Shown: piece after piece, positions 3,422 through 33,900 of the stretch
Layout: every line of letters begins with the position of its first letter
Numbering within the stretch: position 1 is the first letter of the stretch
From: Clostridia bacterium
GTDB taxonomy: Bacteria > Bacillota > Clostridia > Oscillospirales > Acutalibacteraceae
Assembly: GCA_017517665.1 (NCBI GenBank)
Contig: JAFWYP010000017.1
Span: 1-37,162, forward strand
DNA: 37,162 bases
Direction: 5' to 3'
Notes under the pieces: generated by a model
Databases searched by the model: none
What the model was told of the DNA's origin: nothing
The model's input: only the letters and a program-made list of their open reading frames with translations
Translations under genes and position numbers: made by a program

Positions 3422-3431
3422 GGGAATTACC

Positions 3432-8832: not shown

Positions 8833-8861
8833 ACAATAGCACTTTGAATAGCGTTTGTCAA
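8833..8861 (-). promoter_or_regulatory. Sigma-A promoter of the aromatic operon
   Basis: Consensus -35 TTGACA (8861-8856), exactly 17 nt spacer, -10 TATTGT (8838-8833). It reads toward the leader peptide and starts within 20 nt of the end of the preceding hydrolase gene. Expected transcription start is near 8826. Confidence 0.85.
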
Positions 8862-8880
8862 TAGTTTTTGGCAAAAAGTT

Positions 8881-9405: not shown

Positions 9406-9428
9406 TTTTTTCACCTCAAAAATTTTCA

Positions 9429-9450
9429 GGGACGATGTGGGCATCGTCCC
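9429..9450. repeat. GGGACGATG palindrome (REP-like)
   Basis: GGGACGATG and CATCGTCCC form a perfect 9-bp stem with a 4-nt loop, just upstream of the hydrolase ribosome site. From memory, similar 'GGGGACGAT...ATCGTCCC' palindromes recur between genes in Clostridia; this was not checked by search. Without a clean T-tract it is a weak terminator for the preceding gene. Confidence 0.55.
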
Positions 9451-9535
9451 CTACAATTTTAATTTTATAATTCCGTTTGTTTTCCATTGATTTAGATTTT
9501 TGATTTAATATGGTTGGTGAGAACGGTGACGGATG

Positions 9536-9588
9536 GCGTTTTTCTCGCATGAAGGCGTATCGTGTATACGTCGATTGCGAAAAAGCGT
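9536..9588. repeat. Nested palindromic intergenic repeat
   Basis: Outer arms CGTTTTTCTCGCA and TGCGAAAAAGCG enclose an inner near-palindrome AGGCGTATCGTGTATACGTCG. The inner segment resembles AGGCGTACTTGATGTACGTCG at 18248-18268. It lies between htrA and the hydrolase gene. Structure and recurrence suggest a MITE- or REP-type dispersed repeat. Confidence 0.6.
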
Positions 9589-9637
9589 CAAGCAAACTCC
9601 GATTGCGCTCCGTTGCCTTTATCGACAATCAGAATAA

Positions 9638-11173: not shown

Positions 11174-11240
11174 GTGAATTCCTCCGTGGGGAAATTTTAT
11201 GATGTAATAATAACCTATTGTTATTAAATAAGTTTGAACA

Positions 11241-12734: not shown

Positions 12735-12740
12735 TCATTC

Positions 12741-13433: not shown

Positions 13434-13470
13434 AACTTTATCCCCCTCCAACTAATTAATTTAGTTTACA

Positions 13471-13482
13471 ATTATAATTATA
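13471..13482 (-). promoter_or_regulatory. Possible -10 region for the regulator operon
   Basis: Two tandem TATAAT hexamers on the minus strand lie about 40 nt upstream of the response regulator ATG. No convincing -35 element stands at the right distance, so the promoter may need an activator, perhaps the regulator itself. Confidence 0.4.
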
Positions 13483-13571
13483 CTCCGTTTTTTAACGAAT
13501 TTATGAATAGCGCAAAAATAATCTGTTACATTTAGCCGCATAAATTAACAAATTATGAAATAAGTGTGGAA

Positions 13572-14603
13572 TTATTTAACCGAAAATCTGAAAACAGTGC
13601 AGGATGTGAATTTTTCACCCGCATTGACTGTGCACTGCGGAAATTCAGGCATATTGGGTGTGTTGGGATAATACTGCGTTTCAAGGCAGAAACCTGCATT
13701 CTTTATAATCTTTTCGCCCTTCTTGCCGGGATTTGTGCCGTCAAGGAAGTTGCCCGTATAAAGCTGAACGCCGCAAAGGTCGGTGAAAACCTCGAGCATT
13801 CTGCCGCTTTCGGGGTCATATGCAACAGCCGCAGGACCGTCGCCCTCGTTGAGACAGAAGTTGTGGTCGTAGCCCTTGCCGATAACAAGCTGGTCATCAT
13901 CCGCACCGATATCTCTGCCGATGGGTTTCGACACTCTGAAATCAAAGGGTGTGCCCTCAACGGGTCTGATTTCGCCCGTGGGAATGCTGTCCTCATCAAC
14001 GGGAGTATAAGCATCGGCGTTAATCATAAGCTCGTGATTAAGAATATCGCCCTTGCCTGCAAGGTTGAAATATGCGTGGTTTGTCATATTGATAACGGTT
14101 TTCTTATCGCTCACTGCAAAATAATCAACCTTGAGCGAGTTATCCTCAAAAAGAGTGAAGGTTACCTTGAAATCAACCTTGCCGGGGAATCCCATTGCGC
14201 CGTCGGGGCTTGTGTAGCTCATTTCAAGGGAGCAATCGTCAATGATGATTGCCTTCCAGACAGCCTTTGAAAGCTCTGCGCCGCCGTGAAGGCAGGTTTT
14301 TTCTCTTTCGTTCTTTTCAACGTTATATTCAACGCCGTCGATGGTGAATTTTCCGCCTGCAATGCGGTTTGCATATCTGCCGACGGTCATGCCCTGATAA
14401 TCCGAATATTTTTCGTGACCCTCAACGGAGTCAAATCCGATAAGAACATCGGCAAAAACGCCGTTTTTGTCAGCAGCATAAATGCTGTTGATTGTTGCGC
14501 CATAGGTGATGATATCAACGGCGGTTTCCTTTGTGTTTTTTATTGTGTAGCAGTCAACATCTCTGCCGTCTGCAGTTGTTCCGAAATAATTTTTAACTAT
14601 CAT
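13572..14603 (-). CDS. galM: Aldose 1-epimerase (galactose mutarotase)
   Basis: Interconverts alpha and beta anomers of aldoses such as galactose or glucose. The 343-residue length is typical. Motifs are 'GMTVGRYANRIAGGKF', 'CLHGG' with the first catalytic His, 'INMTNHAYFNLAGKGDI' with the second, 'VEGTPFDFR' and C-terminal 'FCLETQYYPNTPNMPEFP' with the catalytic Glu. Its ATG overlaps the stop of the EFR1-type gene by 4 nt, so the two are probably co-translated, though no biochemical link is apparent. Confidence 0.96.
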   Translation of the reverse strand: MIVKNYFGTTADGRDVDCYTIKNTKETAVDIITYGATINSIYAADKNGVFADVLIGFDSVEGHEKYSDYQGMTVGRYANRIAGGKFTIDGVEYNVEKNEREKTCLHGGAELSKAVWKAIIIDDCSLEMSYTSPDGAMGFPGKVDFKVTFTLFEDNSLKVDYFAVSDKKTVINMTNHAYFNLAGKGDILNHELMINADAYTPVDEDSIPTGEIRPVEGTPFDFRVSKPIGRDIGADDDQLVIGKGYDHNFCLNEGDGPAAVAYDPESGRMLEVFTDLCGVQLYTGNFLDGTNPGKKGEKIIKNAGFCLETQYYPNTPNMPEFPQCTVNAGEKFTSCTVFRFSVK

Positions 14604-15349
14604 TTGTTTTCATCCTTTACATTATAATAAGAATATCTGCCTCTGTCGGCAGTCTTTTTCCCGTACTGAATCGCCTTTGCGGGGCAGCGGTTTATGCAAG
14701 CCGTGCAATGCTGACACTTGCTTTTTATCCACTTGGGTCTGCCGTTTTCAATGACAATCGCACCCTCGGGACAGATTTTTTCGCAGAATCCGCACGATGT
14801 GCATTTGTCATCGGCAAAAAATTTTTTTGTTTTTCTGAACGGATTATAGAGCTTTGAAACGATGAAGCTGTTGAGCTCTCCGCCCGAAGCACCGCTTTTT
14901 TTATTTTCTTTCCTTCCGATTTCACCGCAGACTGTTTCAAGCTCCTTATCGGCATGGCGCAGATATTTTTTTGCCTTTTCTTTTTCGCACGGGTCATACA
15001 TCACAACGTAATTATCGGGCATTTTAAGAGAAAAGCTGTAGTTCATTTTTCTGCCGAGTGCCTTTTCAAGCATCTTATCCGCCGTACCCGTGCTTGCGCC
15101 GCAGGTGATAACGCAGAAAACGTAGCTTCCGAGCGAGTTTTTAACCTCGGGCATTGAAGCGAATCGCTTGATTATTTCGGGCAGTCCCCAGAAATACACA
15201 GGGAAAACAAAACCCGTTTTGTCCGTTTTGTTTTCGGGAATGCCGTTTTTCAGAACATCAACAATATCAACCGCTTTGTCGCCCGTTTTTTCGGCAATAA
15301 CCTCGGCGGCATGCTTTGAATTTCCTGTTGCGGAGAAATAAAAAATCAT
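14600..15349 (-). CDS. EFR1-family flavodoxin-ferredoxin fusion protein
   Basis: Putative cytoplasmic electron-transfer protein of 249 residues. The N-terminal flavodoxin-like domain begins 'MIFYFSATGNSKHAAEVIA', the FMN phosphate loop. The C-terminal region carries two 4Fe-4S motifs, 'CTSCGFCEKICPEG' and 'CQHCTACINRCPA'. This is the EFR1 arrangement, common in anaerobic Firmicutes, with unknown redox partners. The frame extends about 65 residues upstream, but that part is hydrophobic noise antisense to an Asn/Gln-rich gene; the chosen ATG has GGTGA 5 nt upstream and a family-like start. Confidence 0.9.
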   Translation of the reverse strand: MIFYFSATGNSKHAAEVIAEKTGDKAVDIVDVLKNGIPENKTDKTGFVFPVYFWGLPEIIKRFASMPEVKNSLGSYVFCVITCGASTGTADKMLEKALGRKMNYSFSLKMPDNYVVMYDPCEKEKAKKYLRHADKELETVCGEIGRKENKKSGASGGELNSFIVSKLYNPFRKTKKFFADDKCTSCGFCEKICPEGAIVIENGRPKWIKSKCQHCTACINRCPAKAIQYGKKTADRGRYSYYNVKDENK

Positions 15350-15380
15350 ATAAATCACCATTTTAAATTTATCATATTTA

Positions 15381-15408
15381 ATTTTATCATACGAAAAAAT
15401 TTTGTCAA
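15381..15408 (-). promoter_or_regulatory. Promoter of the EFR1-galM pair
   Basis: -35 TTGACA (15408-15403), 16-nt spacer, extended -10 TGATAAAAT with hexamer TAAAAT at 15386-15381. It lies about 32 nt upstream of the EFR1 ATG. Confidence 0.75.
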
Positions 15409-15485
15409 TAAGTATTAAACAGCATAAAGGCGGCATAATAGAAATGAACCGAGTGTTCAAAAATTTTTTAGGAGAGATTCTCACC

Positions 15486-15602
15486 ATGGAAAACAACAAC
15501 AAGAACCAGCAGAACAACAACCAGAACAACCAGCAGAATAACAAGAATCAGCAGAACAAGGCACAGAATCAGAAAAATCAGAAAAACAGAGAAAACTTCT
15601 GA
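15486..15602 (+). CDS. Asn/Gln-rich microprotein
   Basis: A 38-residue protein made almost entirely of Asn, Gln and Lys, starting 'MENNNKNQQNNNQNNQQ' and ending 'KNRENF'. AGGAGAG lies about 9 nt before the ATG, and a hairpin terminator begins 11 nt after the stop, so it looks like a self-contained gene rather than noise. It is the only plus-strand gene in the first 18 kb. No known family is recognised. The composition suggests a disordered, prion-like or spore-related protein, but that is a guess. Confidence 0.65.
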   Translation: MENNNKNQQNNNQNNQQNNKNQQNKAQNQKNQKNRENF

Positions 15603-15606
15603 GTAA

Positions 15607-15650
15607 AAAAAGAACGGCTGAGCAAAAAGCTCAGCCGTAAGTTTTATATA
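15607..15650. terminator. Convergent bidirectional terminator
   Basis: ACGGCTGAGC and GCTCAGCCGT (15614-15623 and 15629-15638) form a 10-bp stem with an AAAAA/TTTTT loop. On the minus strand it is followed by TCTTTTTTTAC, a strong tail for the PHP gene. On the plus strand the tail is AAGTTTTATAT, weaker, serving the Asn/Gln-rich gene. Confidence 0.85.
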
Positions 15651-17020
15651 GCTCTTATGATTTCCTGAACAATTACAACAATGCGAAGGCTTGAAAGCAA
15701 GGTAAGAATATCTTCCCAAAGTGCTTCGATGCCTGTTTTCTTAACAAATTCAAGTTTTTCTGCACCGTTGTCAATTGTAAGCGCCTGAGTGAGAGTCATT
15801 CCGCCTTCACCGAGAAGTTCTGCTCTTACATAGAGATAATCTTCTGCGCCTTCGATTGTGTCAAGGTCGAGAGTTATTTCGCCCTCACCGATATCGTACT
15901 TTGCGATAACCTTGCCGTTTGCAATGAACTGAAGTTTATCAGCATCTCTTGCGGAAACAGTGATTTTGTGTCCGTCAACAGAAACCTTTGTAAACATAGG
16001 ATAAGGCATACCGATTTCATCAATAACATCAAATTCCTTATCAGGTCCGATATCATTAACAACATTCTTGCGGAGATTTCTTGTTACCATGAAGAAGTTA
16101 CCGTTCTGCATTGTTTCCTTGATGTTTTCAACATTGTTTTCTTCCATCATGAAAATGCTGAATGATGAGTTAACCATGCTCTTGGTGTGAGCGTCGGTAT
16201 TGCTGAAACCGATAACGTTCTTGCCATAGGGAAGAGTGTACATAAGAAGGTTATCCCAGAGAACTCTGTCATAGCCTGTTGTGCCGTTCTTTTCGTTGAA
16301 AACTTCGGTGCCGAGGCATGAATCATATTTAAGAATGATATCACCGAACTGCTTTATCATCTCGGGATCGTTTACAACCTCGGGATTTGCATTGGAATTA
16401 AGCCAGTCACCGGGATGGTTGATGTGTGAAAGACCGCCGTTTGCATCAGCAAAAGCAACTGCATCTTCATATCCTGACATACCTTCAAAGCTCTGGAAGC
16501 CCATGCCTGTAGCCCCGTCAAGGAAATAACCGTTTACATGGTTCTTTGAGAGAGCAATGAAGTTGAATTCATTTGCACCGAGAACGGGAACCATCTTCTT
16601 GTTTCTGATGGTGACACCGTCATAGAGAGGATATGTGCCGTTCTGAATTGCGGTGTATTCCTCTGTGGTGAGATGCTCATACTTGCAGCCGATGATGGGC
16701 TGATAGAGGTAGAGAGGAGGAAACATGGGAGCCTTGTCCCAATCAACGCCTGTGACGCCGTGGTCTGCGTTTGCAACGAAATCGTAATCCTGATTATAAT
16801 ATTCTTTTATCATAACGCTGAGAGATTCGCTTGCATCGCTGTAGGTTGTGTGAGTGTGGAGAGTGCCTTTGTATGCACCCCATGCGTTGTCGCCTTCCCA
16901 TACAACATCCTTGTAGGGTGAAACGATAACATAGTCTCCGCCTTCGGCGCTTGCACCGATAATTCCGACGGAAAGAACGAGCATAACGCTCAGAACTGCG
17001 CAAAGAATTTTCTTAAGCAT
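15644..17020 (-). CDS. Secreted PHP-domain metal-dependent phosphoesterase-like protein
   Basis: The 458-residue product starts with a signal peptide ('MLKKILCAVLSVMLVLS', likely cut after ASA near residue 25). The PHP fold follows: 'LHTHTTYSDAS' with H55 and H57, 'NADHGVTGVDW', and later 'LSHINHPGDWLN' and 'FSNTDAHTKSM' as further metal ligands. A beta-rich C-terminal domain (about 345-440) is probably a substrate- or wall-binding module. Secreted PHP proteins may act on phosphodiesters outside the cell; the substrate is unknown. The start was chosen for its signal peptide and the GGAGG 7 nt upstream. It follows the acyltransferase by 53 nt on the same strand. Confidence 0.88.
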   Translation of the reverse strand: MLKKILCAVLSVMLVLSVGIIGASAEGGDYVIVSPYKDVVWEGDNAWGAYKGTLHTHTTYSDASESLSVMIKEYYNQDYDFVANADHGVTGVDWDKAPMFPPLYLYQPIIGCKYEHLTTEEYTAIQNGTYPLYDGVTIRNKKMVPVLGANEFNFIALSKNHVNGYFLDGATGMGFQSFEGMSGYEDAVAFADANGGLSHINHPGDWLNSNANPEVVNDPEMIKQFGDIILKYDSCLGTEVFNEKNGTTGYDRVLWDNLLMYTLPYGKNVIGFSNTDAHTKSMVNSSFSIFMMEENNVENIKETMQNGNFFMVTRNLRKNVVNDIGPDKEFDVIDEIGMPYPMFTKVSVDGHKITVSARDADKLQFIANGKVIAKYDIGEGEITLDLDTIEGAEDYLYVRAELLGEGGMTLTQALTIDNGAEKLEFVKKTGIEALWEDILTLLSSLRIVVIVQEIIRAI

Positions 17021-17073
17021 TTTAAAGCCTCCTTGATTTGATGAATATATTAAACCACTTTTTGAAAAAGATG

Positions 17074-18087
17074 TCAATTATGTTTTGCAGGAACATTTGC
17101 TGCAAGGTTTATAATCTTATTGAATAATCCGTTTGCGGAAAAAAGAGTAACCGCCAATGCAAGCGGCAGAGAAAACCATTCCCAATGAACAGGCGAAAGC
17201 TTTTCGAGCATCGGCTGAATTCCGATATTATAGTAAAGTATATATAAAATTATATAGTGGAAAGCATAGACGGGAAGAGTGCGCCTGCCGATTTTTGCGG
17301 CAATTCCGAGGGGTGTTTTCGACGGAGTGAGAACGATAACCGCATAGCACAATGCCGCCGCAACCGCATAATATCCCAGACGAATCAGAAAACCGTATTC
17401 CTCACAGGTGTTGAGGGATGCAAAGGGATTTGCGCCCGTCACAAGGGGTCTGAGCCAATAATATCTTTCGCCGAAGAAAACCGCTGTCAGAACAAAGGCG
17501 GTGATGATAATAACGGAAAGAATTTTCGGCAAAGCTTTTCTGCAATGCGTTTCGATTTTCTTTGTATCGAAAAGATAGCCTGCATAATAAAACGGGAAGA
17601 AAACGATTATTCTTGAAAGCGCAAGAAAGCTGTTGATGTTTTTGTCGTATCCCGCAAGGCAGGCAACGAGAACTCCGAAAACCATGACATATTTCGGCGA
17701 AAAATCCTTAACGGCAATCGTTATCAGCGAATGCGCAAAAAGCGCAAGCATGAACCACGGCAAACCCGTTTCGGTGAAAACACTGAACGAGGTTTTTCCT
17801 GCCGAAATCCAAAAATAAAGGAAATTTATGAATTTCAGAACAAAATACATGACGAGATAGCCAAAAATCTTGTCTTTTCTCTTTTCGTTGACCGTCTTTT
17901 TTGCGAAAAGTCCCGAAACGAATATAAAAAGGGGCATATGGAAGGTGTAAATTGCGAGATACAGCGTTCGCATATACTCATTGCTTCGGGTGGAAAAATC
18001 GGCTATGTGACCGAGAACAACAAGAAAAATGAGAATGAATTTCAGAATATCCCATTTCTCAAGTCTTGAGGAAATTTCTTTTTTCAT
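17074..18087 (-). CDS. Acyltransferase family 3 membrane protein
   Basis: A 337-residue integral membrane protein with about ten hydrophobic helices. The N-terminal 'RLEKWDILKFILIFLVVLGHIADF' carries the conserved His of acyltransferase-3 (OafA/WecH-like) proteins, and 'FHMPLFIFVSGLFAKK' is the next family signature. Such enzymes transfer acetyl or other acyl groups to extracellular glycans or lipids. The start 'MKKEISSRLEKWD' has GGTGA 5 nt upstream; a longer frame begins inside the promoter. It is probably co-transcribed with the secreted PHP gene, which suggests a cell-surface job for both. Confidence 0.9.
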   Translation of the reverse strand: MKKEISSRLEKWDILKFILIFLVVLGHIADFSTRSNEYMRTLYLAIYTFHMPLFIFVSGLFAKKTVNEKRKDKIFGYLVMYFVLKFINFLYFWISAGKTSFSVFTETGLPWFMLALFAHSLITIAVKDFSPKYVMVFGVLVACLAGYDKNINSFLALSRIIVFFPFYYAGYLFDTKKIETHCRKALPKILSVIIITAFVLTAVFFGERYYWLRPLVTGANPFASLNTCEEYGFLIRLGYYAVAAALCYAVIVLTPSKTPLGIAAKIGRRTLPVYAFHYIILYILYYNIGIQPMLEKLSPVHWEWFSLPLALAVTLFSANGLFNKIINLAANVPAKHN

Positions 18088-18103
18088 AATAATCACCTGT
18101 AAA

Positions 18104-18133
18104 ATATTATCATGTGCGGACAATCCGTGTCAA
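18104..18133 (-). promoter_or_regulatory. Promoter of the acyltransferase-PHP pair
   Basis: -35 TTGACA (18133-18128), 18-nt spacer, -10 TAATAT (18109-18104) preceded by TGA as an extended -10. It lies 17 nt from the acyltransferase ATG, giving a very short leader. Confidence 0.7.
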
Positions 18134-18145
18134 GAGATACGGTAA

Positions 18146-18348
18146 GAAAGAAAGTCTGGCGGCGTTTTCTTCGACCGAAGGTGTATAAACTTCCGTTTCT
18201 GTTTCTGATGGTTAAGAAGCTCGAAAGACAAGGAACAACCGCTTTTCAGGCGTACTTGATGTACGTCGGAACGGGTGTGGTAAAGTAACACTTTCGGTTG
18301 TCTGTTGAGAAAGGAAGTCAGACGGCGTTTTCTTCGACCGCAGGTGTA
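18146..18348. repeat. Direct repeat pair with internal palindrome
   Basis: GGCGTTTTCTTCGACCG occurs at 18161-18177 and again at 18324-18340. Each copy continues as [A/C]AGGTGTA, giving 25 nt with one mismatch, and both are preceded by similar GAAAG(A/G)AAGTC. Between them lie AGGCGTAC...GTACGTCG (18248-18268), related to the repeat at 9553-9573, and an ACAACCG/CGGTTGT inverted pair (18235-18241, 18294-18300). This 300-nt stretch has no gene and marks the change from housekeeping to accessory genes. Confidence 0.65.
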
Positions 18349-18363
18349 GGTCTATATGAATTA

Positions 18364-18429
18364 AGGATACCAAAACAAAAACAACCCACGCTGATATGCT
18401 TTCAAAAAAATAATTTTTGGAGGTATCCT
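18364..18429 (+). promoter_or_regulatory. 5'-UTR hairpin covering the DUF6061-like ribosome site
   Basis: AGGATACC (18364-18371) is a perfect complement of GGTATCCT (18422-18429), and flanking A and T runs extend the pairing. The right arm overlaps the GGAGG at 18419-18423 and ends one base before the ATG. In the folded RNA the ribosome site would be largely hidden, which suggests translational control by an antisense RNA, protein or temperature. Confidence 0.6.
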
Positions 18430-18430
18430 A

Positions 18431-18685
18431 ATGAACTATATTAAATCTTGTGAATTCAACATTGACATTGCTTGCGTTGAGGTGAAGTTAACCGACGGTT
18501 CTATGGTGTCAATCGACTGCATTGCCGTCGAAAATGAATATGCAAACAATATGTACGAAGTATCGGAACTTGATTATCTTATCTATAATGAACCAATTAG
18601 TTATGTCACATTATTGCTTAGTGGCAAAATGAAAGAATATCTGCGGAGCAGCACTGATTACACGCCGTTATCAGATTTGAGATAA
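18431..18685 (+). CDS. DUF6061-like small protein
   Basis: An 84-residue cytoplasmic protein with no signal or membrane segment, rich in acidic residues and short beta strands: 'CVEVKLTDGSMVSIDCIAVEN' then a Tyr-rich middle and a helical end 'GKMKEYLRSST'. The look matches DUF6061 proteins often found on Clostridial conjugative elements; I rely on memory for that. GGAGG is 7 nt from ATG. Function unknown. It is the first gene of the accessory segment. Confidence 0.8.
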   Translation: MNYIKSCEFNIDIACVEVKLTDGSMVSIDCIAVENEYANNMYEVSELDYLIYNEPISYVTLLLSGKMKEYLRSSTDYTPLSDLR

Positions 18686-18899
18686 ACCAAATCACCAAAA
18701 ATTCAGATTTCTAAACCTTAAAAATTCGCCCATAATGTGCATTATACGTAAAAGTTGAGGTATAGGACAAATTATACGCATCTCTCAATTACCGTACTTT
18801 GAAACTGTTGATATACAAGGGCTTCAGACCCCTCAGAACGCTTACTTTTCCATCCTTTCATTTTGTTTCCGCTTTTCTCACAAATAGCACATTTTTATC

Positions 18900-18932
18900 A
18901 CAATATTCGATATAATATAAAAGGAATATTGT
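18900..18932. promoter_or_regulatory. Palindrome around a TATAAT box, likely XRE operator
   Basis: ACAATATTC (18900-18908) and GAATATTGT (18924-18932) form a perfect 9+9 inverted repeat, spaced 15 nt. The spacer contains TATAAT (18911-18916) reading toward the XRE gene about 190 nt away. No good -35 is visible. A dimeric regulator bound here would block the -10. The rest of the 420-nt gene-free stretch holds only a small AGCGGA/TCCGCT hairpin near 19030. Confidence 0.5.
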
Positions 18933-19105
18933 AAGATATTATGTTTGAGATAATACAAAAATCAGTTTTGTTACAATTTTATCTATTTCCATTACCTGAT
19001 TGAGAAGTTTAGCCTGAAAGTCCAAGCGGAAAGTCCGCTAAATCCTGAATATTTATTACCTGTTATGTTAAGATTATGATAGTAATTATAGATTCAGGTG
19101 ATGGA

Positions 19106-19330
19106 ATGTTATATCAACGTATCAGGGATTTGCGTGAGGATAAAAATCTGACGCAAAAACAGATGGGAGAAATTCTCTCGTGTAGCCAGCGTGTTTACAG
19201 CAACTATGAAAGAGGAGAGCTTGATATTCCCACAGATATACTTATAAAACTTGCAGATTTCCATGGTGTTTCCGTAGATTATTTGTTAAACAGAACAAAT
19301 AAACTCCGTTTTGATAAAAGCGATTATTAA
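19106..19330 (+). CDS. XRE-family helix-turn-helix regulator
   Basis: A 74-residue Cro/CI-type DNA-binding protein consisting only of the HTH domain: 'LYQRIRDLREDKNLTQKQMGEILSCSQRVYSNYERGELDIPTD' is broken here as segments 'LTQKQMGEIL' (helices 1-2), 'SQRVYSNYERGE' (recognition helix) and 'DYLLNR' (last helix). I start at the second in-frame ATG, which has AGGTGATGG before it and the family's N-terminus. It is likely to control itself or the neighbouring accessory genes, and an inverted repeat upstream is a candidate operator. Confidence 0.88.
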   Translation: MLYQRIRDLREDKNLTQKQMGEILSCSQRVYSNYERGELDIPTDILIKLADFHGVSVDYLLNRTNKLRFDKSDY

Positions 19331-19367
19331 CATTGATATGTTTTACAAGACATATCGGTGTTTTTTT
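19331..19367 (+). terminator. Terminator of the XRE gene
   Basis: CATTGATATGT pairs with ACATATCGGTG (11 bp, 2 G-U) and is followed by TTTTTTT. The stem begins directly after the XRE stop, and the T-run reaches the 3' end of the convergent clpP-like gene. Confidence 0.85.
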
Positions 19368-19938
19368 ATATGATTTTATCTATCAGACCAAATGACAGAG
19401 CATCTTCCGAAAACATAAAGTTGTCTCTATCGGTAGCATCAAGTATTTCTTCAATGTTTTTGTTTGTGTTCAGAGCGAGTATGTTGTTCAGTCTGTTTTT
19501 TACTTTTTGTATTCGTTTTGAAGCGATTTCGATATCAGATGCCTGACCTGATATTCCGCTAAGCGGCTGATGAAGCATAATTTCACTGTTGGTAAGAGCA
19601 TATCTTTTTCCTTTTGTTCCTCCTGCTAACAAGAATGCTGCCATAGAGTAACACGAACCGACACAAACCGTTGATATATCCGGTTTTATTTTGCACATAA
19701 CATCATAAATTGCAAAGCCTGCTGAAACCGAACCGCCGGAAGAATTGATATATAATTGAATATCTTTTTCATTGTCAACACTTTCAAGATACATAAGCTG
19801 AGCGGTTATTGATGCAGATTGATTTTCATCAATTTCTCCGAACAAATAAATAATTCTGTCTTGCAATAACCTGTCATAAAGACTGTAAATACATTCTTTG
19901 TTTTTTTCTTTTACAATAAGATTTGGTGTTATTAACAT
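19366..19938 (-). CDS. ClpP-family serine protease (accessory copy)
   Basis: A 190-residue caseinolytic peptidase subunit. The triad occupies canonical ClpP positions: S98 in 'GSCYSMAAFLLAGG', H123 in 'EIMLHQPLSG' and D172 in 'DATDRDNFMFS'. 'LYINSSGGSV' is the substrate strand. It should form the barrel protease and needs a Clp ATPase, not encoded here. The nucleophile surroundings (SCYSM rather than QAASM) differ from housekeeping ClpP, fitting an accessory paralogue. The ATG was chosen over an upstream GTG because GAGGAG is 8 nt away. It is the last gene of the minus-strand exonuclease/VirD4 operon. Confidence 0.93.
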   Translation of the reverse strand: MLITPNLIVKEKNKECIYSLYDRLLQDRIIYLFGEIDENQSASITAQLMYLESVDNEKDIQLYINSSGGSVSAGFAIYDVMCKIKPDISTVCVGSCYSMAAFLLAGGTKGKRYALTNSEIMLHQPLSGISGQASDIEIASKRIQKVKNRLNNILALNTNKNIEEILDATDRDNFMFSEDALSFGLIDKII

Positions 19939-19943: not shown

Positions 19944-20030
19944 TCACTCCTCGTTTTTATCATTTGAAAACGGAATCGGTATACACCCTTCCTCAATATC
20001 TCTAAGTAATGCGGCTGTATTTAAAACCAT
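19944..20030 (-). CDS. Possible 28-residue linker ORF between virD4-like and clpP-like genes
   Basis: An ATG overlapping the last codons of the VirD4-like gene by 10 nt opens a 28-codon frame, 'MVLNTAALLRDIEEGCIPIP' followed by a charged Asn/Asp/Glu tail. It fills nearly the whole gap to clpP and contains the clpP ribosome site. Its own ribosome site is poor. It may be a translational coupler or a real microprotein. Confidence 0.35.
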   Translation of the reverse strand: MVLNTAALLRDIEEGCIPIPFSNDKNEE

Positions 20031-21430
20031 TGCATAGCCATTTTTTCTTTAACCGACATAACAGCCGGCGGAAACCGAGGAAATTGATATTCTTCAATAT
20101 CCGGTAATTCAGTTATAAAGGGATAGCATCTGCTATGGAGCAAAAGCATTTCTCCTTTTGTTTTAGAAAAACGCATCAGTTCTGAAGGTGATATTAATGG
20201 ATGACGAATTCCTGACAAGTCAGTTTGTGTTCCGCATAAATCACTCAGATCTTTAACAAGCTCAAGTTCTCTTCCTGACAGATAAAACAAATTCGTACAA
20301 TTTGAAATAATTGTCTGTGCATTATCTTTTCCGTATTTTGAGTAAAACTGTCTGAGCGATTGAACCACCAGATGAAAACGAATATCTCTTGCTCTCGCTG
20401 CTGTCAACATCGTTTCGGCTTGGCGTAAAGGTGGTATGTTGCAAAATTCATCTAAAACAAAATTAAAACGTATCGGAAGTTTTCCGTTATCAGTTTTTTT
20501 CGTTGCTGAGATCAAATACTGATAAAGCTGCTGTACAAACATAGATACAACAAAATTGTATCTGGTGCTTTCATCGGGAGTTATCATATAAACAATCGTT
20601 TTTTTGTATGGTATTTCATCAAAGTTAATGCCGACAGATGACATCAGACTCGATAAATTAGGTGATGTTATAAACCTGTTTATCATTGCAAATGCAGAAA
20701 TCATTATTGAACATAACGTTTTCTCACTCGCAGAGAAAAGGCAACCGTAATTAATTGATGCCAAACAGTTCAAAGGAAGCTTGGAAGCAATTTTTATTAA
20801 CGTTTCTGCACTTTCCAAAGAACACATTTTTGCCAAAGAATTAATATTAACCTTTGAACGAGATGAACAAGTCTCAAACATCAGAAGGATATTTGCCAAA
20901 AGCAAATTAGCTGCCGTTTCGTGCCAGAAAGGGTCAGCACGGCTGTTTCTCTGCTCATCGGCAACAATTTCAATAAAATCATTTATCATATTTATTGCAG
21001 CTTCCTTTTCGCCTGAACGATAAAGCTTCCACGGTGTACCCAACGGATTCCACCTGTGACTTGCTTTCGGATTTCTGAGATTGAGTATAAAAATCCTATA
21101 TCCCATTTTTTCTGCGATACCGGAAGTTCGGTTAAAAAGCTCTCCCTTCGGATCAGCAACAAACAGATTTTCACCGCTTGAAATAAGATAATTAATCAAA
21201 GGCATTATAAGACGTCTTGTCTTCATTGATCCGCTTGAACCGAATATTATACTGTGATTATCTCCAGAGTCCACAAAAACCCTTCCCGCTTTGGCAACCA
21301 ACGGTATACCGCCCTTTTCGGATTTGTCAAGCGTACATTCAAACGCGTCCTCTGTTATTTCTTCCTCGTATGCAAATCTTGAATCACCGAATGAGAATGA
21401 TTCGTTAAGATATTTTTCATATAGCTTCAT
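20021..21430 (-). CDS. VirD4/TraG-like ATPase lacking membrane anchor, altered Walker A
   Basis: A 469-residue protein of the type IV coupling protein family, the ATPases that feed DNA or protein into conjugative channels. 'VADPKGELF', 'RWNPLG', Walker B region 'FNFVLDEFCNIPPL' and 'ARARDIRFHLVVQSLRQF' are all family signatures. Two oddities stand out. There is no N-terminal membrane segment. The Walker A reads GSSGSMKT (about 64-71), with Met where the invariant Gly of GxxxxGK[ST] should be; the ATG codon is clear in the DNA. ATR: start chosen at 'MKLYEKYLN' with GAGAGG 9 nt upstream, overlapping the preceding gene by 14 nt. No relaxase or other secretion gene is nearby. Confidence 0.88.
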   Translation of the reverse strand: MKLYEKYLNESFSFGDSRFAYEEEITEDAFECTLDKSEKGGIPLVAKAGRVFVDSGDNHSIIFGSSGSMKTRRLIMPLINYLISSGENLFVADPKGELFNRTSGIAEKMGYRIFILNLRNPKASHRWNPLGTPWKLYRSGEKEAAINMINDFIEIVADEQRNSRADPFWHETAANLLLANILLMFETCSSRSKVNINSLAKMCSLESAETLIKIASKLPLNCLASINYGCLFSASEKTLCSIMISAFAMINRFITSPNLSSLMSSVGINFDEIPYKKTIVYMITPDESTRYNFVVSMFVQQLYQYLISATKKTDNGKLPIRFNFVLDEFCNIPPLRQAETMLTAARARDIRFHLVVQSLRQFYSKYGKDNAQTIISNCTNLFYLSGRELELVKDLSDLCGTQTDLSGIRHPLISPSELMRFSKTKGEMLLLHSRCYPFITELPDIEEYQFPRFPPAVMSVKEKMAMQWF

Positions 21431-21905
21431 TTTCATTTTCCTCTCGTATAAGACTGATTTTGCTTGATACTCTTTTTCTTTTTTCATTAACCCTTGCGTT
21501 ATCTTCCATAACGGAAGTTTTCATCGAACATGTTTTGATTTTCTGAATTAATGTTTCAGCTTTCTCTCTATCGCCTGTTCTTATGATAAAAGCAAAGACT
21601 GCCGCATTCCTTTCTGAATAGTCGAGCAATGCCGCAAATCTGTCATCATCCTCACAGCCTGTCCACTCACTTATATCAACCTCAACCAAACCGTAAAAAT
21701 GATTTTTAAACCTTTTGTTTGCGTTTATTATATTGTGCAGTATTGTCAGCTCACGAAACGAATCATCGCAAGGGTAATGCAGACTGAATGAGATTGTCGG
21801 TGTTTTTCCGTGAAAATTATATCCGCTTGTTCTCATAGCTTTCAATATTTGAACAGTCTTAGTGGTTGTATCCGAGTTCGGATAAGTTAAAATAACATAA
21901 TTCAT
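21417..21905 (-). CDS. Hypothetical protein in the exonuclease/VirD4 operon
   Basis: A 162-residue soluble protein that I do not recognise. It begins with a strand-helix unit, 'MNYVILTYPNSDTTTKTVQI', has an acidic centre ('WTGCEDDDRFAALLDYSER'), a strand 'AAVFAFIIRTGDREKAETL' and a Lys/Arg-rich C-terminal third. The alternating alpha/beta pattern suggests a small Rossmann-like fold, without a Walker motif. GGAGG is 7 nt from ATG. It sits 13 nt after the exonuclease and overlaps the VirD4-like start, so it probably works with one of them. Confidence 0.75.
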   Translation of the reverse strand: MNYVILTYPNSDTTTKTVQILKAMRTSGYNFHGKTPTISFSLHYPCDDSFRELTILHNIINANKRFKNHFYGLVEVDISEWTGCEDDDRFAALLDYSERNAAVFAFIIRTGDREKAETLIQKIKTCSMKTSVMEDNARVNEKRKRVSSKISLIREENENEAI

Positions 21906-22722: not shown

Positions 22723-25700
22723 TTATTCTTCTACATAGAATATGTTTTTGGTTACAAAGGCTGATTCCAAACCGTTTATATCATGACCTTTTATTTGAAG
22801 AGTAAATACATTGCAATCATCAGGAACCTTTAAATATAAAGTGTCACCGGTGGAGCTTTTGACATCATCGGCATCCAGCTTATATTCTATACGCTCTATT
22901 TCTGCACCGGTTGTTTTTGAAGGATAAACTTTAACTTTAATATAGTCATTTCTTTTAACCGTTGCCTCTTCCAAATCTGGAACGATTTTTCCGTTTACAG
23001 ATATTTCTATTGTCGGAGGAACGGGCGGAAGAACAACTACAGAGTACCATACCCAATAATTTCTGGCAAGATCTTTTTCTGTTCTGGCAAACACCTGCAA
23101 TGAAAACTCCTCAAGATTATTTGGTACAATGAACTCCGTATATCCTTCTTCTACGGTAACAACATCACCTGTTCCGAACTTATATTTAATATATGATATA
23201 GAATCACCTTCGGGAGCGATAGCTTCTATACCTATCACGTCGCCTTCTTGCACGCAAACATATCCCGGCTCCACTTTTTCGCCGTTAACGCTTACACCGA
23301 TAACAGGTGTTTGCGTGTTAGGTACAGCATCCATGGCAAGCATCACTTTTCCTTCATTACCTTCAACAACATTGAAACTTCCTATTGATTCAAGAACGCC
23401 TTCTTTCAGAATAACAAAGCAATGCTCATCGGTAATTTTGTCAACCTTGATTCTCATCGTGGCAGTATTTGCATCAATAATTTCATCCAAGACTATTTCA
23501 CCGCTGAATCCGATAATATCAAAGGCATTGTTAAGATATGGTGCTGCTCTTGACACGGCACTTGTCTGATTGACATCAACAATTGTGAATGTATGCTCGC
23601 TCCAATCAGTCAATGTTTCGGGACTGGGATGCAGTGCCGAAACACCTACATCGGGAGGCGAAATCAGAAGATGCGGAACGGCATAGAACACAAGAAAAAG
23701 TATAAGCGCCGCGGAACCGAGTGGGAGAAGAAATCTTTTAAGAAACACTGAACTGAACGAATCGTCTTTGAACATATAACTCATTTCGCCATAATAGTCT
23801 TTTGCAAAATCTGCTGTTTTGACAACCGAGAAATCCGCATTCAGCTTATGAGTTTTAAGATAATCCGTTTTTTCTTCAATAAAAAACGCACCGTTTCGGG
23901 CAATCTGCATTGCCTTAAGAATATTTATTGCCGCCATCGCTTTGAATTGCTTATATTTGACGTTGTGGATTTTTATGAATGCAAAAGTAAGAAGATAATG
24001 TGGATTATGTTCAAGACTGATATCCTGATTCTTTTTTATGCAATCAAAAAAGCTGATATATGAATCCGAAATAATTCTTCCGTTTTCTCCATCTGCAAGA
24101 AATTTCTTTTCTGATGTCAACTCGCTCAAATAAGTCAATGTGTTGATATTAAAGCTGCGCGAACCGATAAGAAAATCATTGTCGGGAGAAATATCGCAGG
24201 TTGCATTGCAGATTTTTTCAAGCTCCGATTTGAGGGCTTTGGCAACAATAAAATCATGCATTGTGGAACCCATAACAACTCTCTTTTTCCCGTCATTACG
24301 AAAAATACCGCATTTTGAAAACTCTTCAAACAAAACATCTGCAGATATTTTCAAATTGTTTGATTTTACAATTTCTTCAAAGTCGGATTCGAATGTTATG
24401 TTTGTATTACGATCAAGCATTTTTTTGCAAATTTGCTCAAAAATCATATCAACATCGATTTCTTCTATACTGTTACTTTCTTTTTTCAGTTTAATCCGAA
24501 GAAGTTCCGCTATGTTACTTAAATGGTATTTTATGATATCTGTTTCGGAGTCGACCGCCTCAATATTATTGAGTTCCGCAAGCATTTTTACAATTCTAAT
24601 ATTATTGCCCAAAATTTTATATAATGAGCGTTCTTCAAGTATTTCTGCGCAAGCGGGATTTGTATACATCATATATTCCCTGATTTGTGCCTGAGAAAGA
24701 CTTTTAAGCTTTATTTCAACAAAACTGCCGGGATTATTTGATATTTCTTCGGCAGATTTTGCCGTTTTCAAATCCTTTTCCAAATCTGTTGACGAGATAA
24801 TAATGCAAAGATTTTTGAATTCTGAAAACGCATTCAATTCTTCGGCAAGAAGTTTTCTTTTGCGTAAAGAAGCATCATTAAGTCCGTCAATCAGCAAAAT
24901 GTATGCAGGAAAGCCATAGCATTTATCAGTAGCCGAAAATGCTTTTCTCAACTGCATTCTTTTGGATTCAACGCCCGATACATTACCGAATTTAAAGTAT
25001 TCGTTAAGAATTCTGTCTGTAAAGGATTCGTTTTCTTTAAGTTTATTGACTGAAATATAGATAGGTGCTGAGTTCACCCTTTTTTCTCTTATGTCATTGT
25101 AAAACTTTTTTAAAGCAAAGCTTTTTCCGCTATCTTTTGATCCAGTAAGAATAAAGCGACCGTTAATCGCTGAAGAGCGAATGAAGTTCTGTGTTTCTTG
25201 ATAAAACTCCAAGTTTTCCAGCTTATCCAAAGATAGTGACAAGGGATCGGAAGAATATGCCTTTCGAAAGAAACTCAACAAATCTTTTTCAACAAAACTT
25301 AACCCCTTGTTGTATTCTACTTCCATAGACGGATACAGTATTTCGCTCGCCAACTCACCTGATTCATCAACAAGAACACATTCGTCACAAAAACAATCCA
25401 AAACTTTTTCTGTGCTGGCACTCGCACGGTTTTCCGCAAGTGAAATCAGCTTTTCAACAGATTTCATCACAGTATCGCCGTCACCGATACAACTGTCAAA
25501 CCTGTTATCGGGGTTGCAGCAAATGGTTTTCTTGAAAAAGCGTGCAAGTTCATCAAAAAAACAAACATTCACTCCCAAAAACAGCTCGTTGTCAGTATCA
25601 AAATCATACTCCGCATCGGTTTCCATTTCGTTAAACGATGGAAGATAGCCGAAAATTCTTTCAAACAGAATCGCACCTATTGAAAAAATATCCGTTTTTT

Positions 25701-26391
25701 CGCTGAATTCATCAAGGTTAAACTGCTTTTGCTCGGGTGCAGAATATCCTTCGGAATACGAAAAATCAACATCATTGCTGCGTATATTTTCTTTTTTAAC
25801 AACAGTATCCAGATCCAAAAACTTCAGAATTCTTGTGTTCCTTTGCTCATAAGAATGCTCAATGCAGAGAAGATTTGAGGGCTTGATATCAAGATGAAGA
25901 TAACCCGCCTCGTGCAAAGCGCCTGTAATAGCACATATATCGCAAGTCGCTTTAAGCATTTCTGCAAGGCTTTCGTTTTTTATATCCTCATATGTTTGGT
26001 ATGATTCCACCGGAATTTCCGCATAGGAAGTTCCGTTACCCTCAAAAAAATCGTTATTATGGCAAACAGAGAACGTTCCGTTTATATCATCCGAAGCAGA
26101 AATATTGTTTATCTGGCGATTTTTGTTGAGAAAATCATTTTTGTGTTTCTCAAATTTTTCGGCATCTTCGGGTATTATTTTTCCGTCAGGGTCTCTTGAA
26201 AGCCTTAGTCTTTCGGGATAAAACTCTTTCAGAATGCATCGCTTTGCATTACCGAAGTTATCTTCTTTTTCTGCGGTATAGACCAAAGTGTTGGCTCCCG
26301 AGCCGATGTGCGAAACAATTCGGTATTCAGTTTCCTGAGTGCTGCTTTTCAGTTTATAGCAGCAATCATTTTTTAAGGGTATTCTTGTCAT
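22723..26391 (-). CDS. Transmembrane Ser/Thr kinase-NACHT-like NTPase receptor with Ig-like ectodomain
   Basis: A 1222-residue multidomain protein. Residues about 20-315 are a eukaryotic-type protein kinase: Gly loop 'GSGANTLVY', Lys in 'CILKEF' (K55), catalytic 'HLDIKPSN' (D168, K170, N173), 'DLD' in place of DFG (D193) and 'SAPEQ'. Residues about 400-650 are a STAND/NACHT-like NTPase: Walker A 'GSKDSGKS' (K423) and Walker B 'YILLIDGLND' (D502). A helical stretch follows, then one membrane helix (about 882-904) with Lys/Arg on the N-side. Two tandem beta-sandwich repeats after it open with 'PVIGVSVNGEKVEPG' and 'PTIEISVNGKIVPD'. N-in topology resembles PrkC, but with an NTPase inserted. It lies 76 nt after the 755-residue gene. 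I know of no described protein with this exact order. Confidence 0.9.
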   Translation of the reverse strand: MTRIPLKNDCCYKLKSSTQETEYRIVSHIGSGANTLVYTAEKEDNFGNAKRCILKEFYPERLRLSRDPDGKIIPEDAEKFEKHKNDFLNKNRQINNISASDDINGTFSVCHNNDFFEGNGTSYAEIPVESYQTYEDIKNESLAEMLKATCDICAITGALHEAGYLHLDIKPSNLLCIEHSYEQRNTRILKFLDLDTVVKKENIRSNDVDFSYSEGYSAPEQKQFNLDEFSEKTDIFSIGAILFERIFGYLPSFNEMETDAEYDFDTDNELFLGVNVCFFDELARFFKKTICCNPDNRFDSCIGDGDTVMKSVEKLISLAENRASASTEKVLDCFCDECVLVDESGELASEILYPSMEVEYNKGLSFVEKDLLSFFRKAYSSDPLSLSLDKLENLEFYQETQNFIRSSAINGRFILTGSKDSGKSFALKKFYNDIREKRVNSAPIYISVNKLKENESFTDRILNEYFKFGNVSGVESKRMQLRKAFSATDKCYGFPAYILLIDGLNDASLRKRKLLAEELNAFSEFKNLCIIISSTDLEKDLKTAKSAEEISNNPGSFVEIKLKSLSQAQIREYMMYTNPACAEILEERSLYKILGNNIRIVKMLAELNNIEAVDSETDIIKYHLSNIAELLRIKLKKESNSIEEIDVDMIFEQICKKMLDRNTNITFESDFEEIVKSNNLKISADVLFEEFSKCGIFRNDGKKRVVMGSTMHDFIVAKALKSELEKICNATCDISPDNDFLIGSRSFNINTLTYLSELTSEKKFLADGENGRIISDSYISFFDCIKKNQDISLEHNPHYLLTFAFIKIHNVKYKQFKAMAAINILKAMQIARNGAFFIEEKTDYLKTHKLNADFSVVKTADFAKDYYGEMSYMFKDDSFSSVFLKRFLLPLGSAALILFLVFYAVPHLLISPPDVGVSALHPSPETLTDWSEHTFTIVDVNQTSAVSRAAPYLNNAFDIIGFSGEIVLDEIIDANTATMRIKVDKITDEHCFVILKEGVLESIGSFNVVEGNEGKVMLAMDAVPNTQTPVIGVSVNGEKVEPGYVCVQEGDVIGIEAIAPEGDSISYIKYKFGTGDVVTVEEGYTEFIVPNNLEEFSLQVFARTEKDLARNYWVWYSVVVLPPVPPTIEISVNGKIVPDLEEATVKRNDYIKVKVYPSKTTGAEIERIEYKLDADDVKSSTGDTLYLKVPDDCNVFTLQIKGHDINGLESAFVTKNIFYVEE

Positions 26392-30403: not shown

Positions 30404-30476
30404 ACGCAAAACATCATAAGTTCAACAATTAAATGAAACAAATGTGCAATGCGAAAGCACTCGCGAGGTTATAAAA

Positions 30477-30908
30477 ATGATTGTTTTTAAAGAAAACATA
30501 TATAAAAAAATCCAAAAGGAATTGTCGAAAAACCCGGAATTTGAATGCGGAGGTATCCTCGGCAAATGTGAAAATTGCATTACGGCGTTTGAATACGACA
30601 AAACAGGCTCAAACAAGAGCAAAAATATATATTTTCCCGATGTAGAAACTCTAAATGTAATTCTTAAAACTTGGGAAAAAGAAAACATAAATTTTTGCGG
30701 ATTCGTTCATAATCATCCAAACGGTTCTGCCGAACTTTCAAACGGTGATATCAATTTCGCTTTAAAAATCATTAACAACTTTGATAATATAGATGATTTG
30801 CTGATGGGTATATATGTTGTTACGCCCGACTGCAAAAACAACAACTTGGTATGGTATCTTGTCCGAAAGGATAAGGTTGACAAAATCTATCCGGATATTA
30901 TCAAATGA
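30477..30908 (+). CDS. JAMM/MPN+ metalloprotease-like protein
   Basis: A 143-residue stand-alone JAB domain. The zinc site is complete: E23 in 'EFECGGILGK', H78 and H80 in 'FVHNHPNGSAELSNGD', S88 and D91, fitting HxHPx6Sx2D. Such enzymes remove ubiquitin-like tags or process sulfur-carrier proteins, and in bacteria occur in ubiquitin-like conjugation and defence clusters. No E1, E2 or ubiquitin-like gene is visible here. The start at 'MIVFKENIYKK' has GAGG 8 nt upstream. It is followed closely by the large secreted protein gene. Confidence 0.9.
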   Translation: MIVFKENIYKKIQKELSKNPEFECGGILGKCENCITAFEYDKTGSNKSKNIYFPDVETLNVILKTWEKENINFCGFVHNHPNGSAELSNGDINFALKIINNFDNIDDLLMGIYVVTPDCKNNNLVWYLVRKDKVDKIYPDIIK

Positions 30909-30940
30909 CATATAAAAAATTTATGAAAGAAGGCAAAAAC

Positions 30941-33900
30941 ATGAAAAAGGTACTTTCCTTTGCTCTCGCAGTGATTATGGTTTTCGGTTCTGTTCCTCTT
31001 GCAGCTTTTTCAAATTTTAACTTGAATGGACTTTTTCCGTTGTCTGCAATAACTGCAGAAGCTGCAACAGCTGTTGTTATCACAACATGCGATGCCAATC
31101 CCGGCGATAATAACGCCTGGCTTGATATCGACTCCGATCGGGTAGAATGGACTTGCTCAGCATCGGCAAAATCCTACCGCTACACTGTTGTTGAAGTTGA
31201 TAAAAGCGGACAGAAGATAGCATCTCCTCTTGTTGAGTTAAAACTCACAACAAGTAAGTACTTTAGATTGTCTTCAATAAACGGCATGAATCCCAGCTCT
31301 ATCTATAAGGTTTGGGTAGGCTGCTATACAGATTCTTCAGGTAACACAATCCTTCAGGGTGACGGCGGTTGCGAAGCGTATTTTCGCACGAATTCGACCA
31401 CACCTACGGTTACCACAGGCAAAGCATCGAATATAGGAGATACATATGCCACACTCTCCGGCACCCTTGAAAAGAACGGCGGTGCTTCTATTACTGACCA
31501 TGGTTTTGTTGTAAGCACCTCAAGCTCAAAGCTTACATTGGCAAAAGGTGATGTCTATTCTCTCGGCAGCGCCGGCGCTAACAAAGGAACATTTACAAAA
31601 AAGATTACGGACCTTTCCCGTGCAAAGACATATTATTTTAAGTATTACGCTCAAAATGAGAACGGTGTCGAATACGGCGATTCAGCTTTATTCACTACAA
31701 ATTGTTCCCATTCGGAAACTGATGAAAAAATCTCCACCTCAAACGAAGTAATCTATAAAAGTATTTCTTCAACACAACATCAATTGAAATGTTATTATGA
31801 TAAGTACTGCACTCTATGTTATCAGACCGTTGAGAAAGCTTACAGATATGACACTACAACAGAATCGCACTCGTTTAACAGTGCAGGTATCTGTGAAGAC
31901 TGTAAATATGCCAAAGGCTGTGCTCATGAAAATCAGATTAAGGAATACTATGATGAGCGCTATAACATAACTGACAGCAAAACGCATGAATATGTTAAAT
32001 ATTACAAGCTTGTGTGTTATGACTGTGGTATTGATGTAGATACCAAGGTTATGTGGGATACCACTACTCAGAATCATTCTTTCTTACGCAACGAATGCAC
32101 CAAATGCGGCTATGTAAAAAATCAGGCTTTGAGCGTAACTCTTACAGCAGACTCCGCAAAGGCAAATGTTAACACTAATTTCGGTGCAACGGCACAGGCA
32201 ACAGGCGGTGCGGGCGGATATCAGTATACACACTCTGTTTTCAACGAGAAAAACGAGGAGTTAAGATATCTTTCATATTCTGAGGTTACCCGTTTTTCTT
32301 ACAGCACAACAAAACCCGGCAAATATTATTTCAAGGTAACAGTTAAAGATGCTGACGGCACAACTGCAACAGCAACTTCGGATATGATAACCGTAGTTTG
32401 CCCTCACGAAACATATGATACCGATAAATTCAGAATCACATCTTCACTTGAATATGAGCAGTATAACGATTCTCAACATTATTCAATTTGGTATTATAAC
32501 TGGGATTGTACTGTTTGCAACGACAGATACAAAGAGCATGTTACCGATGCCGAAAACAAATCTTTGGAGAATCATTCATATTCATCCAACAGCAATGTTT
32601 GTAAATGTTGCGGTTATACAAACAGCACAACATATACGATAAACTATGATGCCAACGGCGGTATAGGTGCGCCTGCAAGCCAGACTAAGAAGTATAACGT
32701 TACCTTAAAATTAAGCACGGTTATTCCGTCAAAAAAGGGCTACACTTTCCTTGGTTGGTCAACAAGCGCTACTGCAACAAGTGCTACATATAGTGCAGGC
32801 GGAAATTATACCAAAAACAGCAATTGCACACTATATGCCGTTTGGTCTTCGGCTGTTCCCAAGGTTATTATCGACGGAACTGAAATTGCCCCCGAATATC
32901 TCAGAAAAGAGCAAACCGGAGTTTATGCGGAATTATACAAACTTACCTCTGCATTAAACGGTTCATACACCAAGAACGGTAATAATGCAACGGTAAGGAT
33001 ATATAATGAAAATTATGGCGATTACTTCAGGTTGTTTTATACTTTACCTTCGAATGTTTCAGAAGGATCAACATTCAATGTTGAAGTTTATAATGAAACA
33101 ACGGCTGATAAATTTCTAACACACGGTGTTTATTCCGACGGAATGATTTTCGGTAATGTTGATTTGTTAACAAGAATAGGTAACATGAAACGCTCGACAA
33201 ATTACAACGAAGCAACCAAATGTGAATATGTAAAAGCAAACGCAACACAAGAAGGGTTTACTGATAAAACAAGCACAGTGTCGTTCAGTATACGTGAATC
33301 CGCCTCAAAACCAGAGATTTCTGGATCAACAACAATATCTTTTGAACAAGGCTGGTTGGTAAATGACTCTATAACTTATAATCATGGTCTTGCACAGTTT
33401 TGCTCGCAGTTTTCTATGATAGGTTACAGCGATTGCTATGGTAAAGCGGTTAATGTTAATTCAAAAACACAGCTCAAAACTGCGCTTGAAAGTGTCGGCT
33501 TTGAACTCGTCGATATTAATATGCAAACAGGTAGAGATGAGGTTAACTATTTCATTGCTGCACGACAGGGACTGGATTTGAAAACCGGCAAAGTATATGA
33601 TGTGATATTCGTAGGATTAATCGGTTCTTATAAAGACCAGTGGTATTCTGATTTTGATCCCTACGGCATGGAATCAAATGACGAACAAAAACTCTTGGTT
33701 GACGGAACAACTCATCGCGGTTTTTATCATGCCCAAAAATATGTGTACGGCAAACTTTATAATTATATGTACGGAAAGTACAAAGGAAATTATCCAAAAG
33801 ATAGCATCAAAATCGTTTTAACAGGACACAGCAGAGGTGCGGCAGGAGCCAATTTGATAGGAAAGCAATTGATTGATGAAGGTATATACACCTCAAAAGA

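Follow-up and report, generated by a model that had tools for sequence, protein, structure and literature searches.

Can a protein kinase, a STAND-type switch and a membrane receptor be joined in one bacterial polypeptide, and to which proteins would such a chain be related? The question is raised by a 37,162-nucleotide stretch of DNA from a Clostridia bacterium (the window, which is one whole contig), where a single gene encodes a protein of 1222 residues that we call P0001. An earlier sequence-only reading had described it as a kinase, a NACHT-like nucleoside triphosphatase (NTPase), a membrane helix and an ectodomain with two repeats, and had compared it with PrkC-type kinases. We find the open reading frame at exactly 22723-26391 on the minus strand, and the order kinase-NACHT-membrane-ectodomain, with a STAND-type switch, is backed by the sequence. 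Together with the gene upstream of it (P0002), P0001 is firmly placed by sequence comparison in a two-gene module of a companion and a kinase-STAND protein. P0001 is a real and unusual variant of such kinase-STAND proteins, within a small and apparently unnamed family. We read the pair, with about even confidence, as a two-gene kinase-STAND switch of Clostridia in a membrane-receptor version, with a response that most likely lies in conflict or defence. Features are provided in Table 1.

Table 1. Coordinates of features of the P0002-P0001 locus and of lipoprotein-like genes at related loci (locus numbers precede their positions)
Feature	Position	Strand	Basis or remark
P0001, kinase-NACHT-membrane-ectodomain protein, 1222 residues	22723..26391	-	
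Protein kinase domain, residues 22-300 (K55, D168, N173, D193)	25492..26328	-	Pfam Pkinase E 1.8e-12; profile, residue table, tree
NACHT NTPase, residues 410-575	24667..25164	-	Walker A 417-424, Walker B with D502; hhalign; Pfam NACHT below cut-off
Single membrane helix, residues 887-905	23677..23733	-	19-residue hydropathy 2.39
Predicted outside part, residues 906-1222	22726..23676	-	no Pfam family
Ectodomain repeat 1, residues ~1025-1122	23026..23319	-	homologous to repeat 2
Ectodomain repeat 2, residues ~1123-1222	22726..23025	-	homologous to repeat 1
Ribosome-binding site AGGAGG of P0001	26399..26404	-	seven bases before ATG
Terminator-like stem 3' of P0001	22661..22674	-	consensus match alone; 7 in region against 4.7 expected, weak
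P0002, long divergent companion, 755 residues	26468..28735	-	companion profile E 5.1e-26
Promoter-like site 5' of P0002	28838..28867	-	consensus match alone; 24 in region against 20.9 expected, weak
Lipoprotein-like genes	L028:11538-12656, L037:4363-5187, L032:12941-14038, L020:12186-13634		

A kinase clade paired with a companion gene

The assignment to the module is firm because three results agree: the Ser/Thr-type kinase of P0001 scores 203.8 bits against a profile of system kinases built without it (the best outside kinase reaches 110.0), P0002 matches the companion profile at E 5.1e-26, and in a FastTree tree a split with support 1.0 separates 16 outside kinases from P0001 and 22 relatives. 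These 22 underlie the profile and the residue table as well; L021 and L034 (near-duplicates of L020 and L033) were left out, as was L019, where a frameshift or sequencing error divides the kinase between two overlapping frames (2816-3247 and 3193-6105). The 16 outgroup sequences were taken from the outside kinases kept by a kinase scan of GTDB, and there is no named PrkC among them.

Eight residues of P0001 (K55, D168, K170, N173, D193, E220, D234 and R297) are invariant in all 22 aligned relatives. The claim of complete kinase catalytic residues holds for the VAIK lysine, the catalytic aspartate, the asparagine and the DFG aspartate (K55, D168, N173 and D193, respectively) but goes too far elsewhere: the HRD arginine is leucine and the DFG glycine is aspartate (DLD) in P0001 and in 22 of 22 relatives, an unusual clade signature, and no invariant alpha-C glutamate is found in alignment columns 76-103 (P0001 and 22 relatives). 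The comparison with PrkC proved misleading, since the kinase groups with kinase-STAND proteins that lack a membrane helix and come with a companion gene; a PrkC-like origin of the kinase is not supported by the profile scores or by the tree, with an outside set that holds no named PrkC. The PADLOC matches of P0001 (PD-T4-6, mad6, MkoA and others) cover the kinase region.

The two-gene arrangement was also found on plasmids. A protein search with P0001 yielded two matches, both in the kinase region, on pRUMAL01 of Ruminococcus albus 7 (kinase-STAND protein WP_013483440, companion WP_013483441) and on pCY186 of Butyrivibrio proteoclasticus (WP_242662283 and WP_013283130, respectively). These kinase-STAND proteins are annotated as hypothetical or NB-ARC proteins; the companions, of 385-431 residues, are encoded directly upstream of them and P0002 is related to both. 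A profile of the two plasmid companions finds matches in 5 of 250 genomes of the family and 3 of 291 of the class (the own genome being counted each time), while a broader companion profile finds only the own genome among 398 of the phylum. Five of the six other companion-bearing genomes have a kinase of the group adjacent; the exception (G307) has a companion without a system kinase, the best kinase of the genome scoring 63.6 bits.

Starting from the kinase, the GTDB scan yielded 206 relatives, of which 80 were kept: eighteen loci (L020-L037) score at least 325 bits and the other 62 score below 100 or show no match. The companion lies upstream in 16 of these 18 loci, and in 24 of 26 system kinases when all are taken together with the window (spacing of 14-173 base pairs (bp) over the 24 pairs). 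Five loci (L014, L015, L016, L018 and L019) were found via the companion, so that their pairing is not independent, unlike that of L020-L037, which were found via the kinase. In total there are 25 relatives, from Ruminococcus, Butyrivibrio and other Clostridia, whose kinase precedes an NB-ARC-like STAND ATPase or a domain with weaker similarity to one; the motif GxxxxGK[S/T] follows the kinase in 24 of them. Pfam places NB-ARC over the cut-off in 11 of 17 relatives, the other six showing only sub-cut-off NB-ARC or AAA-type matches. TPR repeats are over the cut-off in two of the 17 (L014 and L018), weak in three (P0008, P0010 and L019) and not seen in 12, where for some relatives the scan took in matches to 0.001 only. 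In L014 (6015-9806, minus strand) an extra C-terminal stretch without a Pfam match follows the TPRs (residues ~975-1263) and may be an effector or sensor.

P0002 lies on the same strand as P0001, 76 bp upstream, and its role as the system companion is a point missing from the earlier description. Its conserved blocks are found at residues 16-187 and 663-748 (independent E-values 1.2e-13 and 1.8e-14; the best of 200 shuffles reaches 5.6 bits). About 475 residues lie between the blocks, against a total of 374-431 residues for other companions (that of L023 is cut). Given this insert and the NACHT domain, helix and repeats of P0001, both genes of the window locus are remodelled. The companion has no relative on the phage contigs searched, no match in PDB and no stable Pfam family, and a helix-turn-helix guess was accordingly dropped. 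No membrane segment was found in the nine companions scanned.

In G307 (locus L017) a frame of 3216 residues is located 94 bp upstream of the companion (8726-9997 and 10092-19742, minus strand). The protein is rich in repeats of Ig-like appearance by eye and has hydrophobic stretches at residues 12 and 3187. The arrangement may represent a second link of a companion to surface repeat proteins, or chance; a match between these repeats and those of the P0001 ectodomain was looked for and not found.

NACHT domain, membrane helix and ectodomain repeats

Where its relatives carry an NB-ARC- or AAA-like ATPase, P0001 also has a STAND ATPase after the kinase, but of the NACHT type. The proposed Walker motifs are in place, Walker A reading GSKDSGKS (417-424) and Walker B LLIDGLND (D502). 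The Pfam NACHT model remains under its 26.7-bit cut-off in each of three scans (15.4, 17.3 and 20.3 bits), with E-values of 0.017 for whole P0001 and 0.0044 for the fragment 316-886; the 20.3-bit match spans model positions 4-161 of 167. Such weak matches are common, being present at E 0.001 in 49 of 120 genomes of the same family and in 11 of 14 control genomes too. We then used a NACHT profile made of eight over-cut-off loci of the same bacterial family (L102-L106 and L108-L110; L107 was left out, having no P-loop match). With hhalign, residues 316-886 of P0001 match this profile at 97.2% over 146 columns, covering residues 410-575; the aligned part takes in both Walker motifs and the start of the helical domain and extends as far as the LKSLSQAQIREYM region. 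By comparison, 100 shuffles yield at most 1.1% and the VirD4-type ATPase of the window 0.6%. Higher values, 86.4% for the STAND part of P0010 and 48.0% for that of P0008, come from only 27 and 29 columns around the P-loop, respectively. On these sequence comparisons we take the central NTPase of P0001 as NACHT, with a domain that probably extends past residue 575.

The single membrane helix described earlier is also borne out: residues 887-905 reach a hydropathy of 2.39, against at most 1.60 in 11 window proteins annotated as soluble and 2.3-2.8 in four annotated as membrane or anchored proteins. One exception is a Fer4/flavodoxin frame (14600-15544) with 2.42 at residue 1, whose TTG start was set mechanically. 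On a second scale, for membrane insertion, the helix is intermediate rather than extreme (1.96, compared with 3.79 for ClpP and 1.13 for an acyltransferase). None of the 25 relatives has a hydrophobic stretch above 1.73 past the kinase, 21 of them having a complete C-terminus and four (L023, L027, L029 and L034) being cut at contig ends. The 20 residues preceding the helix contain three lysines or arginines and the following 30 contain none, which under the positive-inside rule would place kinase and NACHT inside and the repeats outside. For Thiohalocapsa, PMC10907252 mentions a NACHT domain predicted to be periplasmic, together with a diversified lectin domain. In L106, a NACHT protein of the same family as the window, two hydrophobic stretches (at positions 37 and 243 of the sequence segment examined) precede the P-loop, and NACHT proteins with membrane helices may thus recur in this bacterial family.

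The two ectodomain repeats, putatively of beta-sandwich fold, are indeed homologous to each other, with 30% identity and 28.1 bits against 19.6 for the best of 300 shuffles (tested on residues 1021-1122 and 1121-1222). No Pfam family, PASTA included, matches residues 906-1222 above chance level. The combination of NACHT domain, membrane helix and repeats sets P0001 alone among the system members.

A putative outside-in receptor and its alternatives

STAND proteins are described as switches that an inducer drives from an ADP-bound closed form to an ATP-bound, open and multimerising one (PMC4381067 and PMC6468293). It is from this biology that we infer, by analogy, outside-in signalling by P0001. 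The soluble NB-ARC-like part usual in the module is replaced in P0001 by the NACHT domain, the helix and the repeat-bearing C-terminal part. An envelope stimulus (phage adsorption, conjugation contact or wall damage) or the ectodomain would release an autoinhibited, ADP-bound NACHT domain, which would exchange its nucleotide and then cluster. Clustering would bring the non-RD kinase domains together and activate them, upon which they might phosphorylate the companion, another target or both; the companion could be substrate, adaptor or inhibitor. The response would most likely be a conflict or defence programme and less likely an envelope-stress response.

Several observations weigh against this reading. 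Besides the unusual HRD and DFG signature of the kinase clade, the sensor-1 arginine of NACHT is absent in P0001 (SSTD) and Walker B ends in ND instead of DE, so that hydrolysis by the NACHT domain may be weak. The STAND part of P0001 can be aligned with those of its relatives at the P-loop only (28 columns, 5.7%), and for this reason direct descent from their NB-ARC-like ATPase is unsupported. The module itself is not uniform, as L029 and L035 have no companion and L031 has no P-loop motif. Defence context is sporadic, only one of nine flanking proteins being matched by PADLOC. Finally, a survey of homologues, which the sequence-only reading had proposed, found the same domain order in the window protein only (25 relatives; 394 genomes of the order): residues 316-1222 match nothing but the own genome among the 394, and the same holds for P0001 among 45 genomes of the genus. 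The architecture is likewise confined to the own genome among 99 relative genomes, and pattern scans of IMG/VR and GTDB with P0001 found no relative, nor one in phages.

Given this single example, in a draft genome of 68 contigs with 88.67% estimated completeness, and given the weak NACHT motifs, it might be argued that the long frame is an assembly artefact or a degenerate fusion without function. We regard this as highly improbable: 1222 open codons follow a good ribosome-binding site, the kinase residues are intact, a divergent companion lies upstream, and the third-position guanine-cytosine content is alike across the kinase (0.38), the NACHT domain (0.33) and the ectodomain (0.31).

The main rival accepts the protein and questions the direction of the signal: the NACHT domain would sense a cytosolic trigger, as the soluble relatives presumably do, and helix and repeats would serve only to tether P0001 to the cell wall or envelope. 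That none of the 25 relatives (four of them cut at contig ends) shows a comparable helix speaks for this, as the module then works without an outside part, and so does the lack of a recognised ligand-binding Pfam family in the ectodomain. On the other hand, P0001 shows no recognisable inside sensor repeat, and its ectodomain, placed C-terminally where STAND proteins have their sensor, is then the obvious candidate; the argument is a weak one, as such inside repeats exceed the cut-off in just two of the 17 relatives scanned. Overall we consider inside sensing a minor but real possibility.

Known systems, genomic surroundings and meaning

PrkC/PknB-type PASTA kinases have the kinase inside, one helix and repeats outside, and no STAND domain. 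P0001 shares the inside kinase, the helix and the outside repeats with them, adds a STAND domain and carries repeats that match no PASTA. The PknK protein of Mycobacterium tuberculosis, cited as a STAND kinase in PMC4381067, joins a Ser/Thr kinase and a STAND ATPase in one chain, as P0001 does. Its ATPase is of a MalT-like type, and PknK is not known to have a membrane helix, an ectodomain or a companion gene. The claim that the combination is undescribed stands in so far as neither a kinase-NACHT-membrane protein nor the two-gene family is described among the literature matches listed (titles and abstract starts, with subscription journals mostly outside); kinase-STAND fusions as such were already known (PMC4381067).

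Among the closest counterparts are the proteins of pRUMAL01 and pCY186, which share with P0001 the kinase clade, the two-gene order and companions related to P0002, but differ in their NB-ARC/AAA-type ATPase, in having no membrane helix and in showing only weak TPR matches. In bNACHT (PMC12169576) and Avs proteins (PMC10907252), too, a central NACHT or STAND switch separates an effector from a C-terminal sensor position; these sources describe nuclease effectors, whereas P0001 combines a kinase with a membrane helix and an ectodomain and is paired with a second gene. A similar division into constant and variable parts is known from membrane conflict systems of two genes, whose enzyme is constant and whose C-termini vary (PMC7159879). 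In EACC1 'System 4' of the same source, a constant 5' component is followed by a 3' gene with a constant N-terminal enzyme and a variable C-terminus, sometimes with a membrane segment and an outside domain. There, however, the enzyme is a caspase or cyclase and EACC1 carries the membrane segment, against a kinase and nine scanned companions without one in the module studied here.

In the window, the left part holds an aromatic amino-acid gene cluster. Downstream of the module lie genes for a DEDDh-type exonuclease, a VirD4/TraG-type coupling protein (20021-21487, minus strand; no other conjugation genes were recognised among the window proteins scanned) and ClpP; upstream are a transglutaminase, a JAB-like gene (30444-30908) and, 3' of the latter, a lipase-domain protein of 1534 residues (30905-35509, plus strand) with Lipase_3, List_Bact and InlB-type repeats. 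On pRUMAL01, brxL is found 1.6 kilobases (kb) downstream of the module, then ThiF and Mov34 genes (1.6-5 kb away), and on pCY186 a caspase-family gene follows at 3.4 kb. At L015 (10840-19309) the module is divergent, its companion about 470 bp from a Cas3c-matching gene with more same-strand open reading frames behind it; judging by the name of the best model, this neighbour is probably a type I-C CRISPR-Cas locus. Plasmid carriage together with the brxL and Cas3 neighbours suggests a conflict or defence role.

These surroundings bear on another alternative, namely an envelope-stress or regulatory receptor unrelated to defence, whose logic would resemble that of PASTA kinases or PknK. In its favour, a regulatory kinase-STAND protein is known in PknK (PMC4381067), and 5 of 14 system loci examined have a lipoprotein-like gene less than 600 bp (244-598 bp) downstream of the kinase. 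We judge this alternative improbable, as the rare and patchy distribution, the plasmid carriage and the Cas3 and brxL neighbours are unlike those of a core regulator. The lipoprotein-like genes of L028, L032 and L037 share 48-65% identity, while those of L020 and its near-duplicate L021 match that of L032 over 57 residues only. They are possibly a loosely linked envelope partner of Ruminococcus-type loci; a third part of the module was rejected, given 5 of 14 loci of which one is a near-duplicate.

More tentatively, and with less than even confidence, P0001 may be seen as a transmembrane NLR-like receptor kinase that unites an outside sensor, a NACHT switch for oligomerisation and a non-RD kinase and is wired to a dedicated second protein. 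It would then belong to an as yet undescribed class of bacterial conflict modules, in which STAND and sensor parts can be exchanged around a constant kinase and companion. Switches of the NLR type are known mainly for sensing inside the cell. Although the significance is limited by the single example, a chain leading from an outside signal through NACHT to a kinase would, if true, illustrate how NLR-type switches can be converted into receptors at the cell surface. A ready test set is provided by the two-gene family, where kinase and companion stay the same and the STAND and C-terminal parts vary; exchanging the varying parts could reveal which one determines what is sensed.

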